Below, in pieces: positions 55,194 through 60,082 of a DNA stretch of 64,000 nt (positions are counted from its first letter, which is position 1; each line of letters opens with the position of its first letter). The translations under genes and the position numbers were made by a program. The notes below the pieces were generated by a model. The model did no database searches. It was not told where the DNA came from and saw only the letters and a list, made by a program, of their open reading frames with translations. The stretch comes from Candidatus Poribacteria bacterium (GTDB lineage Bacteria > Poribacteria > WGA-4E > WGA-3G), in assembly GCA_028818705.1 (NCBI GenBank), contig JAPPNJ010000011.1:26464-90463 (forward strand). The letters run 5' to 3'.

Positions 55194-55256
55194 CCGGGTG
55201 TATAAGTAATTACGGGCTCTACTATAAAATAAAACATGCAGCAACGGAGGCATATT

Positions 55257-57839
55257 ATGAGATTTGATAGACTTACAATTAAAGCACAAGAAGCATTACA
55301 GACAGCACAAAGTTTAGCCTCAGATACCCAAAGCCCGGAACTTGGTGTTGAACATTTGATGTTGGCACTCATTAGACAGGCTGATGGAATTGTGCTACCA
55401 ATTTTTCAGAAATTAGGTGTTGAGATTCCAGGAATCACTGCGGCAGTCGAAGCCGCTGTTCAGAAAACACCGAAAGTGCAAGGCGCGGCTGCTGAAATGC
55501 GCATCGGTCCAGCACTACAATCCGTTTTGGATACGGCGTTTAAAGAGGCGACGGGCCTTAAAGATGAGTACGTCAGCACAGAACACCTCCTGATAGCCTC
55601 TGCTGAAGCAAAGCAGGGTGAAATCGGCAAAATCCTGCGGGAAGCGGGTGTAACAAAAGATAAAATCCTCAAGGCACTCGTTGACATCCGCGGCAACCAG
55701 CGGATAACCGATCAGAACCCAGAGGATAAGTATCAGGCACTGACCCGGTTTGGCAGAGAACTCACACAAGAGGCAATTTCAGGCAAACTCGATCCGGTTA
55801 TCGGACGCGATGATGAAATCCGCCGCGTGATGCAAGTGCTCTCCCGCAGACGGAAAAATAATCCCGTGCTCATCGGTGAACCTGGTGTCGGGAAAACAGC
55901 GATTGTGGAAGGGTTGGCACAGCGCATCGCTGATGGAGATGTCCCAGAAAGCCTACGCGAGAAACGTCTGATTGCACTCGATTTAGGAGCACTTATCGCC
56001 GGTAGTAAATACCGTGGCGAATTTGAGGACAGATTGAAAGCCGTTCTTGCCGACATAGAACAAGCCGAAGGGCAGGTAATCCTCTTTATTGATGAACTTC
56101 ATACTATCGTTGGCGCGGGTGCTGCAGAAGGTGCGGTTGACGCATCAAATATGCTCAAACCCGCACTGGCACGAGGTGAACTCCGGTGTATCGGGGCAAC
56201 CACGCTCGATGAATATCGCAAGCACATTGAGAAAGATGCCGCTCTGGAACGGAGATTCCAGCCTGTTCAGGTTGAAGAACCGTCTGTTGAAGACACGATT
56301 GCTATCCTGCGAGGTCTGAAGGAACGCTATGAAACCCACCACGGCGTGCAAATTCAGGACAACGCCATTGTCGCCGCTGCCACCCTCTCAAAGCGTTATA
56401 TCTCTGAACGTTTTCTACCAGACAAAGCCGTGGATTTGGTGGACGAAGCTGCATCGCGCCTGCGGATTGAAATTGACAGCGTCCCAGAGGAAATTGATGA
56501 GGTCGAACGTCGTATTATCCAACTCCAAATAGAACAGCAGGCATTAGAAAAAGAACAGGATAGTGCGTTGCAACAACGTCTTGAAAAACTGGTTGCTGAA
56601 CTCGCCGAACTCAAAGAAAAGGCAAACACGCTCAAAGCAACATGGCAGAATGAAAAAGCGAGTTTGACGCGGATTGGCGATCTAATGGAGCAGATCGAGG
56701 CACTCCGTATTGAATCGGAGCAAGCCAAACGCGCAGGCAATCTCGGCAGCGCTTCAGAACTCGAATACGGTAAGATACCAGAACTGGAATCACAGCTCAA
56801 GAGCGTCCGAGAAGCACTGGAAACAGACGCGCAAAGCACACAAATGTTAAAAGAACAGGTCGGTGCAGAGGACATCGCCGAAATTGTAGCGAAATGGACG
56901 GGTATCCCTGTTTATCGGCTTATGGAAGGCGAGACGCAGAAACTCATCCACATGGAAGAGCGTCTGCGTGAACAGGTCATTGGACAGGATGAGGCGGTGA
57001 GTGCTGTTTCCAATGCCATTCGACGCGCCCGCGTCGGTCTCGGCGATCCTGATCGACCTCTTGGCTCTTTCCTCTTTATGGGTCCAACGGGTGTCGGCAA
57101 AACGCACCTCGCTAAATCGCTCGCCGAATTCCTTTTCGACGACGCAAATGCGATGGCGCGTATCGACATGAGTGAGTACATGGAAAGACACACCGTATCT
57201 CGATTAATCGGAGCACCGCCAGGGTACGTCGGTTACGACGAAGGCGGACAGCTGACTGAAGCAGTGCGACGACATCCTTATTGTGTCATCCTGCTTGACG
57301 AGGTTGAGAAGGCGCATCCAGAGGTATTTAACGTCTTACTCCAGATGCTCGACGACGGCAGAATGACGGACGGACAGGGACGCACCGTCGATTTCAAGAA
57401 CACGGTTGTTATCATGACCTCTAACATCGGCAGTCAATGGATTAGCGATGCGCTCCTGGACGGAAAGGAAATCCGACATAAAGTGATGGAAGCCGTGCAA
57501 GCACACTTCCCACCCGAATTCTTGAACCGTATTGATGACCTGATTATCTTCGACCGACTCGGTATTGAAGAGTTGAAGCGGATCGTCACGCTGGAACTTG
57601 CGCAGTTGAGTCATCGCTTTGCGGAGAAGGAGATGACTTTGGCACTCTCTGAATCTACAAACGAGGAACTGGTGAAACGCGGATTCGACGCAGTCTACGG
57701 CGCACGTCCACTTCGACGGACAATCCAACGGGATATTCTCAACCCGTTGGCTATCCAGATATTGGAAGGCACTTTCCACGACGGTGATGCAATCACTGTT
57801 GACCTTGAAGATGAAGGGTTCGTTTTCAGGAAGGCGTGA
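55257..57839 (+). CDS. clpB: ATP-dependent chaperone ClpB
   Basis: [45 protein letters not shown] coiled coil; [43 protein letters not shown]. Confidence 0.97.
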
Positions 57840-57912: not shown

Positions 57913-57944
57913 GGCGAGGTATCCATGCCTCGCCTATTTTTTTC
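57913..57944 (+). terminator. Hairpin plus T-rich tract downstream of clpB
   Basis: GGCGAGGTATCCATGCCTCGCC followed by TATTTTTTTC. Confidence 0.5.
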
Positions 57945-57993: not shown

Positions 57994-58022
57994 TTGACAT
58001 CCGCGCGATTTTATGTTATATT
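57994..58022 (+). promoter_or_regulatory. Candidate sigma70 promoter (TTGACA-17-TATATT)
   Basis: TTGACA 57994-57999, TATATT 58017-58022, 39 bp upstream of the antitoxin ATG. Confidence 0.55.
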
Positions 58023-58060
58023 ACAGTTTATAAATCCGCGAAAATACAAGGAGTTATCTC

Positions 58061-58312
58061 GTGAAAAAATCGAACTGTGCACCAGCAGAAATTCCAGTCA
58101 AAGCCCCAACATCCGGCTCGCGGAAAGATGATGTTGAAATTGCAAACAGTGATATTCCACCTAAGAAAGAGCGACAGGGTCCTGTCCCACCTCCAAACTA
58201 TACCTTGGAGGAACTCTTAGCTAAAGTGCCAGAACCCACAAATAGAGGGCCAGAATCCAATTTTTCGGGTAAAGTTGACACGGGTCCACCAGTCGGCAAA
58301 GAAGTATGGTAA
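58061..58312 (+). CDS. MazE-like antitoxin with atypical N-terminus
   Basis: C-terminal YTLEELLAKVPEPTNRGPESNFSGKVDTGPPVGKEVW resembles the MazE/PemI tail; directly upstream of mazF. Confidence 0.75.
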   Translation: MKKSNCAPAEIPVKAPTSGSRKDDVEIANSDIPPKKERQGPVPPPNYTLEELLAKVPEPTNRGPESNFSGKVDTGPPVGKEVW

Positions 58313-58321
58313 GATTAGTTT

Positions 58322-58696
58322 ATGTATGTGCCACGACACGGTGATATAATATGGGTTGACTTCAATCCACAAATAGGACATGAACAAGCAAAAGAACGTC
58401 CAGCACTTGTCCTATCGGAGGAGCTCTACAATCGCAGATTGCAGTTGGCGATTATGTGTCCTATTACGACGAGTCAGAAACCTTATCGCGTAGACCTTGA
58501 CGTTTCTATACCTCCGGGAGTGGAGATTCGTAACAAGGATAATACGGGCGTTTTTGAACTCACCGGAGTCATTCAAGCCGATCATATTAAGAGCCTTGAT
58601 TGGTGGGCAAGAGGTGCCAAGTACGCAGGTGACATGCCAGATGCAACGGTTATTCAAGTTTTGCAAATAGTGGGGAAACTCGTGAAAATTTGGTAA
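58322..58696 (+). CDS. mazF: MazF/PemK family toxin
   Basis: YVPRHGDIIWVDFNPQIGHEQAKERPALVLSEELYN; MCPITTSQKPYRVDLDV; QADHIKSLDW. Confidence 0.92.
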   Translation: MYVPRHGDIIWVDFNPQIGHEQAKERPALVLSEELYNRRLQLAIMCPITTSQKPYRVDLDVSIPPGVEIRNKDNTGVFELTGVIQADHIKSLDWWARGAKYAGDMPDATVIQVLQIVGKLVKIW

Positions 58697-58708
58697 GGAA
58701 AACTAACA

Positions 58709-59008
58709 ATGAAACCCCCAAACTGGACAGATACCGACTCACGTAAATGTAAGCAGATTTGGGCAGAATACCAGAAACAGCACGATATCACAGATAGGAT
58801 TGGACAGACAGCCGGTATTGACCCAAAAAGCGGAAGAATTTGGTTCGGTGATTCTGCCTTAGAAATTGTCGAAAAGCGCGAAACTGAATGCTTGACCTCC
58901 CCGCTTTTCTTTGAACGTGTGGGCTATGAAGCCTATTTTCGGAAAGGACGAGGAAAAAATGAGGCGTTTCGGCACCCCAGGACTTGTGCATCCATGAGGG
59001 GGAACTGA
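58709..59008 (+). CDS. Hypothetical small protein (paralog of 59389 remnant)
   Basis: MKPPNWTDTDSRKCKQIWAEYQKQHDITDRIGQTAGIDPKSGRIWFGDSALEIVEK; clean ORF in the mazEF transcription direction. Confidence 0.6.
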   Translation: MKPPNWTDTDSRKCKQIWAEYQKQHDITDRIGQTAGIDPKSGRIWFGDSALEIVEKRETECLTSPLFFERVGYEAYFRKGRGKNEAFRHPRTCASMRGN

Positions 59009-59010
59009 TA

Positions 59011-59274
59011 ATGCTTAAACACATCATAGATCCCGAAGTTGAAGAATACGAGGATGTCTACAATGACGCTGAATACGTCGCAGCCCAAGAGCTGCAGCAA
59101 CAGGAGGGAATGCTCTTGAAACAGGGCAATGAATTCAAAGCCTCTGTCTGGCTAACATCTGAAGACGCAGAAATTGTAATAAGACTTGCTGAGGAACGCG
59201 GGATGCCAGCGGGTGAACTTATTGAAGAGTGGATTTATGAGCGCATTAATGAAGCGTTAGACATAGGGATCTAA
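59011..59274 (+). CDS. Hypothetical small protein, CopG/antitoxin-like
   Basis: MLKHIIDPEVEEYEDVYNDAEYVAAQELQQQEG..SEDAEIVIRLAEERGMPAGELIEEWIYERI; starts 2 bp after the previous stop. Confidence 0.55.
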   Translation: MLKHIIDPEVEEYEDVYNDAEYVAAQELQQQEGMLLKQGNEFKASVWLTSEDAEIVIRLAEERGMPAGELIEEWIYERINEALDIGI

Positions 59275-59332: not shown

Positions 59333-59388
59333 GTAGTTGGAAAGCCTCGGTCTCAAACTGCGCTTGCAACAGAACGGAGGAATCAACG

Positions 59389-59556
59389 ATGAAACCCCAA
59401 ATTGGACGGAAACCGATTCTCGCAAATGCAAGCAGATTTGGGCGGAATACCAGGAACAGCACGATATTACTGAACATATTGGACAGACAGCTGGGATAGA
59501 TCCAAAGAGCAGACGAATTTGGTTCAGCGATTCCGCCTTGGAAATTGTCAAAAAAT
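59389..59556 (+). pseudogene. Frameshifted and truncated paralog of 58709-59008
   Basis: RBS GGAGG 59376-59380 and ATG 59389 kept, but CCCC replaces CCCCC of copy 1. Shifted frame reads DETPNWTETDSRKCKQIWAEYQEQHDITEHIGQTAGIDPKSRRIWFSDSALEIVKK, then homology stops. Confidence 0.8.
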
Positions 59557-59563
59557 ATATAAT

Positions 59564-60082
59564 AACCCAAGTTGCTGGTTGCAAATCCATGAGGTATCCT
59601 TTATAGCGTTTTTAACCACGAAAACCAAAAGGAGCATCCCATAGATTTGACTATTGTAGCGGTTTATACAATTTGTGATGACCTTCTCATAAAACTTGGC
59701 ATCGTAACTATCGAAACGAGCACCTGCTCGCGCCCTCCTCGAAAAATTCACAAAAATCGCAAAAACTAAATAGCCTTGGCAATTTTTATGGACGTAATTT
59801 GTATTTTCTGATAAAATATCGCACAATATCATAGTTAGATATAGAGTTTCATACATGTTTTAATTTACTAAAATAAATATTGACCTATTATAACTTAATA
59901 ATACAAGTTTTCTATTCTCACTGCGAAGCAATATCATCCCTGAATCAGAATCAGAATCAACGGTATAAAGCCTATAAAGGCTTTACCGGGGTATGAATGC
60001 CTTATGGCATTCACCGGGGGTGAAGAAAGGACCTGGCAAACTCCATTAAAATGCTCAAAATTTGTTAGTAGCAACTTGGGTT
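59564..60082. mobile_element. Possible MITE-like non-coding element bounded by inverted AACCCAAGTTGCT
   Basis: AACCCAAGTTGCT 59564-59576 and AGCAACTTGGGTT 60070-60082 are perfect 13-bp inverted repeats around AT-rich non-coding DNA that truncates the upstream paralog. Confidence 0.4.
59967..60012. repeat. Double hairpin with ACCGGGG spacers
   Basis: AAAGCCT-ATAA-AGGCTTT and GAATGCC-TTAT-GGCATTC, each followed by ACCGGGG; a related unit lies near 10410-10440. Confidence 0.6.

Follow-up and report, generated by a model that had tools for sequence, protein, structure and literature searches.

A MazF toxin paired with a MazE-type antitoxin that lacks the AbrB domain, in a Poribacterial family with a frequently doubled docking helix

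The antitoxin-mazF locus

A two-gene toxin-antitoxin pair occupies positions 58061-58696 of the plus strand of the window, the 64,000-nucleotide stretch analysed here, and fills exactly the interval that an earlier note on this DNA had assigned to it. The source assembly is a Candidatus Poribacteria MAG of 6.0 Mb, 95% complete with 5.6% contamination. The antitoxin gene (58061..58312) starts with GTG at 58061, stops with TAA at 58310-58312 and encodes 83 residues. It is followed after 9 nt by mazF (58322..58696), which starts with ATG at 58322, has a stop codon ending at 58696 and encodes a predicted endoribonuclease toxin of 124 residues. Both genes lie on the same strand with the antitoxin gene upstream, and this order is conserved across many loci.

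Expression signals precede the pair. Upstream lies clpB (55236-57839), separated from the antitoxin gene by a terminator-like hairpin (57913..57934, plus strand) with a 9-pair stem, six of its pairs GC, followed by the T-run TATTTTTTTC; this element is a consensus match only. A sigma-70-like promoter follows at 57994..58022 on the plus strand, with TTGACA (57994-57999), a 17-nt spacer, TATATT (58017-58022) and a TG before the -10 element. The earlier note had proposed a promoter at precisely these coordinates. It matches the consensus at 11 of 12 positions, where a threshold of 9/12 is expected to give about three chance matches in a region this size, and four orthologous loci linked to clpB (L006, L007, L016 and L017) retain the block. 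A Shine-Dalgarno-like AAGGAG, read from the sequence, stands at 58048..58053 (plus strand), 7 nt before the GTG, and the same motif or near forms of it are present in most orthologues.

The toxin is, by every sequence test made, an intact member of the MazF/PemK family, and RNase and toxic activity are predicted for it. Pfam family PF02452 matches with E=6e-25 (88 bits against a cut-off of 23.1), the PemK/MazF fold extending over the full length. The nearest solved structure is K. pneumoniae MazF (7bye_B, E=9e-25), and a Foldseek search with the predicted structure recovered many MazF chains at TMt ~0.9. In the alignment to 7bye, R26 and T49 of the window protein fall on R28 and T51, which the K. 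pneumoniae study gives as the catalytic residues (PMC8086154). Among MazFs of relatives whose antitoxins lack AbrB, the Arg is present in 54/55 and the Thr in 55/55. The positions that we take to be equivalent to E24, R29 and T52 of E. coli MazF, on an assumed numbering of that sequence, are invariant or nearly so in related MazFs. Relative to the E. coli and K. pneumoniae proteins, the window MazF carries an insertion of ~13 residues around IPPGVEIRNKDNTGVFEL.

The region downstream of mazF holds a small repeated arrangement of its own. Two copies of a small protein (58709-59008 and 59337-59606), with the pattern PNWT(D/E)TDSRKCKQIWAEYQ...GIDPKSxRIWF and the second copy shorter, flank an RHH/DUF6290-like ORF (58984-59274). 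Neither copy has a Pfam match.

A MazE-type tail on an AbrB-free antitoxin

The antitoxin resembles MazE in its C-terminal half only. The C-terminal MazF-binding helix and acidic tail are present and the N-terminal AbrB/SpoVT swapped-hairpin domain that marks a PF04014 MazE is absent, so we class the protein as a MazE-tail antitoxin and not as a PF04014 MazE. As a single query, the 83 residues gave no match in Pfam, NCBIfam or PDB. A family profile, which includes 18 members with AbrB, aligned the helix and tail to E. coli MazE (1ub4_C, E=3.5e-7) and Deinococcus MazE (7d2n_E, E=3.4e-10), and the correspondence can also be followed by eye (YTLEELLAKVPEP...KVDTGPPVGKEVW), which upholds the MazE-like tail recognised in the earlier note. 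Residues 46-59 (NYTLEELLAKVPEP; 58196..58237, plus strand) form the putative MazF-docking helix, equivalent in the profile alignment to the MazE H2 or site II segment. Residues 71-83 (KVDTGPPVGKEVW; 58271..58309, plus strand) form the extended tail, equivalent to MazE 68-82, the site I segment.

The N-terminal half is predicted to be disordered. Residues 1-45 (58061..58195, plus strand) are rich in Pro and Lys with a net charge of about +1.5, and AlphaFold2 gave residues 1-29 a pLDDT below 50, in keeping with the disordered look noted before. The only antitoxin helix formed in the model spans residues 49-54 (TLEELL), within the docking segment, and the MazF part is well folded; the input was an artificial read-through fusion of both genes, taken from the natural DNA with stops as Gly so that a single prediction covered the two proteins. 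Compared with the MazEF systems of E. coli, K. pneumoniae and D. radiodurans (1ub4, 7bye, 7d2n), the pair is alike in MazF fold, catalytic residues, an antitoxin gene immediately upstream, and a docking helix and acidic tail ending in W that align over the whole tail. It differs in lacking the AbrB dimer, in its disordered N-terminus, in an insertion of ~10 residues between helix and tail, and in having relatives with two docking helices.

Both observations that could have overturned the AbrB-free reading were looked for. The earlier note had named an AbrB fold in the N-terminus or an alternative upstream start encoding one; Pfam and the AlphaFold2 model contain no such fold, and the frame upstream of the GTG is open for only nine codons (IRENTRSYL) before a stop, with no ATG, GTG or TTG among them, so a longer in-frame N-terminus is impossible. 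A six-frame search of the whole assembly with PF04014 at E<=0.01 found no AbrB protein, and the same search succeeded in 10 of 14 control genomes. The MAG contig and the GTG start might raise the suspicion that an AbrB-coding stretch was overlooked through start choice or misassembly. Against this stand the upstream stop, the genome search and the recurrence of the same short frame, 92 aa from stop to stop, in the independent assemblies L006, L007 and L016, which leave such an artefact scarcely credible. Because the assembly is a MAG, a separate AbrB partner could fall in a gap.

Published contacts between MazE and MazF indicate how such a protein could work. The E. coli MazE tail has two main parts: a helix (residues 54-67) binds site II, on the MazF dimer edge, and an extended segment (68-82) binds site I, in the dimer centre. 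The 54-67 peptide by itself inhibits MazF, 68-82 by itself does not, and a helical peptide binds a single MazF dimer in two copies, one at each edge (PMC12557383). Since the helix alone inhibits and the last 23-35 MazE residues are enough for inhibition (PMC3281143), a tail of this kind would neutralise MazF without needing AbrB. The window antitoxin has one helix and one tail, and neutralisation by the same contacts as in E. coli MazE is therefore expected.

We think it likely that the locus is a two-gene mazEF-type pair in which an AbrB-free, disordered MazE-tail antitoxin neutralises MazF through linear docking motifs; neutralisation, a monomeric state and lost autoregulation are what we infer from these comparisons. 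As in E. coli MazE, the helix (residues ~46-59) would bind the hydrophobic groove at the MazF dimer edge and so block access of RNA to its site, and the tail (71-83) would strengthen the interaction by lying in the central groove, which is positively charged. Without an AbrB dimer, the antitoxin would behave as a monomer, a peptide-like inhibitor that is easily degraded. No MazF2-MazE2-MazF2 chain would be built through an AbrB core, the part of MazE that joins a pair of MazF dimers and recognises the operator. Such an antitoxin might be weak, because the synthetic helical peptide SamF binds MazF about a thousandfold less tightly than full-length E. coli MazE does (PMC12557383) and here there is no folded part.

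In this the antitoxin looks like a natural counterpart of man-made MazE C-terminal peptides. MazEp, a 35-aa MazE tail fusion and SamF are AbrB-free MazF inhibitors that also target these helix and/or tail sites (PMC3281143, PMC12557383). What sets the antitoxin of the window apart from them is that it comes from a natural gene and has a longer linker, and that its helix is naturally doubled in relatives.

Regulation is also likely to be unlike that of MazE. Altered autoregulation and assembly, as the earlier note expected, are plausible given what the AbrB domain is known to do in MazE: repression of the promoter through that domain would be absent, and expression would be set by the conserved sigma-70-like promoter. 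Upstream of five clpB-linked loci we saw no conserved operator palindrome, the promoter block alone being conserved. Other type II antitoxins without a DNA-binding domain, PaaA2 (paaR2-paaA2-parE2, from an E. coli O157 prophage) and epsilon (omega-epsilon-zeta), are controlled through a third gene (PMC8630535, PMC4803016), and a separate regulator encoded elsewhere might likewise control this promoter, as PaaR does for PaaA-ParE or omega for epsilon-zeta. Those systems serve toxins, ParE and zeta, that are unrelated to MazF, and have a dedicated adjacent regulator gene. We regard a three-component system as unlikely here. No regulator gene recurs beside the antitoxin-mazF pairs; each fixed site has its own housekeeping genes as recurring neighbours. 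The window genome has no AbrB protein to fill the role, and the RHH-like ORF downstream of mazF was not found as a recurring neighbour.

Distribution and chromosomal sites in Poribacteria

AbrB-less antitoxins are a Poribacterial family rather than a peculiarity of one genome. The nearest homologues of the window antitoxin are 84-87% identical, and homologues stand upstream of MazF in many Poribacteria. A single-sequence query at E<=1, many of whose matches are weak, found antitoxin homologues in 57/85 Poribacterial genomes; MazF is present in 73/85. We gathered ~200 loci and searched all open frames with the helix and tail profile, which gave 113 distinct tail-bearing antitoxins, 18 with AbrB and 95 without; an independent Pfam scan detected PF04014 in 15 of 111. 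Apart from one 43-aa fragment, the AbrB-less forms are confined to one family-level Poribacteria clade (genera g1-g4), an assignment in which eight AbrB-less rows from named contigs carry no lineage code.

We found AbrB-less relatives neither in the sampled genomes of other phyla nor on mobile elements. In ~540 genomes from a limited sample of other phyla, every listed profile match lay at positions from 104 onward, covering the last helix and tail, and every antitoxin frame read out had AbrB. Phages and viral contigs yielded no antitoxin relative and plasmids only one weak match to an AbrB-MazE tail, on which grounds we rejected a mobile-element or phage origin. A search of mainly freely accessible literature returned no description of an AbrB-less MazE, a Poribacterial MazEF or a doubled docking helix.

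The pairs occupy fixed chromosomal sites, the one in the window following clpB. At 12 loci from several genera (the L046-L063 group), an AbrB-less pair is embedded in the iron-sulphur assembly cluster, with NifU-like, Rieske and FeS_assembly_P genes on one side and a PF06155/rhodanese pair on the other, on the same strand. Other AbrB-less pairs stand in front of a UvrD helicase gene. Because these sites are held in several genera, the pairs appear to be vertically inherited rather than mobile addiction modules. Beside one pair, L058:1-1257 (minus strand) encodes a UvrD-type helicase whose N-terminal part is interrupted by a GIY-YIG nuclease domain.

The family does not look like a set of dying genes. 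Truncated MazF or antitoxin frames at L011, L016, L017, L033 and L039 might suggest that the AbrB domain was lost by truncation from a locus on its way to disappearing. Yet the pair is widespread in one Poribacteria family, the docking helix is under purifying selection class-wide (dN/dS 0.10-0.16), the MazF catalytic positions are invariant, the helix has been duplicated repeatedly and the promoter is conserved. We consider decay very improbable. The sequence comparisons show an intact MazF, a conserved helix and tail, absence of AbrB from protein and assembly and a conserved gene order, and they point to vertical inheritance.

Poribacterial MazFs also have other kinds of partner. The other two MazF-like genes of the window genome (L003, L004) have different upstream partners, neither showing AbrB or a MazE tail by eye. 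Hybrid antitoxins occur at L135:2260-2751 and L145:690-1172, where an N-terminal part, VVLPAExF...YYDDSPITEEE..., which resembles other Poribacterial MazF partners, is followed by a MazE-type docking helix. At seven Poribacterial loci (L167, L170, L171, L184, L185, L188 and L201), MazF is preceded by a protein of ~400 aa; the two scanned against Pfam contain XRE-HTH and ImmA/IrrE (Peptidase_M78) domains. The C-terminal 40 residues of this protein resemble (41% identity over 41 aa, E=6e-8) L157, a short antitoxin that stands alone next to a MazF, and this metallopeptidase-regulator may carry an antitoxin tail.

Duplication of the docking helix

Half of the AbrB-less antitoxins carry the docking helix twice. 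A second, internal match to the helix, ending at profile position 20-34 of 40, is present in 48 of the 95, in the order site-II helix, linker, site-II helix, site-I tail; among the same 95, the profile found no second tail and no third helix. All 18 AbrB forms have a single helix at most (Fisher p=3e-5, on observations that are not independent, the tree having only one or two AbrB transitions). Equivalent helix positions are 41 residues apart in 32 of the 48 and 39-43 apart in 10 more, and one spacing value of 31 stems from an assembly gap. AlphaFold2 places the two helices of one such member, L055, at residues 82-87 and 123-129, exactly one period apart, and predicts two further N-terminal helices (12-23 and 30-49) with no overall fold (pTM 0.24).

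The sequence before the helix is wholly unlike between classes (PPPKKERGPVPPPDYTLEELL, FGPPRREKGSDSIKRPDYTLEDLL, PNRSIPEEAYSPVNVSKPTYTLADLL, KPHRPEKTGRPADLPRLKLADLL and others), yet is common to both copies within a protein, and for 41 of 45 proteins copy 1 is nearer to its own copy 2 than to any copy 1 from another class. Because copies within a protein are closer than copies between classes, either the duplication arose several times or recombination keeps the copies alike. On the MazF tree, which has few columns and many unresolved forks, the one- or two-helix state changes seven times, at least four of them forced by well-supported branches. Strong purifying selection acts on the internal helix: pooled pairwise dN/dS, over pairs that are not independent, comes to 0.10 there, compared with 0.16 in the terminal helix and 0.20-0.37 in the linkers.

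Basic linkers raise the question of whether DNA binding survives in another form. The Pro/Lys/Arg-rich linker might bind DNA like an AT-hook (KRGRPPGLPRLKL in L174, KKGRPPGRPRLKL in L172), in which case autoregulation would persist and the doubled modules would provide two DNA contacts. In one subgroup, GRP cores with flanking basic residues do recur and are duplicated along with the helix, and the copy-2 linker is moderately constrained (dN/dS 0.20). We nonetheless think this reading unlikely: L172 and L174 have no Pfam match even at E<=10, linkers are unrelated between classes and evolve faster than the helices, the window linker is nearly neutral (+1.5 over 45 aa), and it is the promoter block, not a palindrome, that is conserved upstream.

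The simplest explanation of the doubled helix is spatial, though we hold it tentatively and at rather less than even odds. In the two-helix forms, one chain could fill both edge sites of a single MazF dimer, so that AbrB dimerisation would be replaced by helix duplication in a disordered chain; the ~41-residue period would correspond to the distance between sites, and the product would be a 1:1 complex of chain and MazF dimer without a DNA-binding part. The one-helix form in the window would then be a simpler member of the family. That a two-edge clamp is necessary is called into question by the one-helix members, which are equally common, and by the possibility that one bound peptide suffices. 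One peptide at one site is said to switch off both MazF active sites, in work cited in PMC3281143.

The pattern reaches well beyond the single locus of the earlier note: a phylum-restricted family, with the helix doubled in half of its members, at fixed chromosomal sites. It thereby gives more interest than one truncated antitoxin. The usual picture of a type II antitoxin joins a DNA-binding domain to a disordered tail that binds the toxin, and gives autoregulation a central place in the behaviour of these systems. The Poribacterial MazEF pairs are a natural set, passed on vertically, whose antitoxins have lost the DNA-binding half and in many cases have the toxin-binding half doubled. With the AbrB-less pairs it becomes possible to examine if such systems need autoregulation, and with the two-helix antitoxins to examine if multivalent short linear motifs can substitute for a folded dimer. 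They also provide natural templates for MazF-inhibiting peptides. Helix doubling at a fixed spacing suggests another route to neutralising MazF without a folded, self-regulating antidote.
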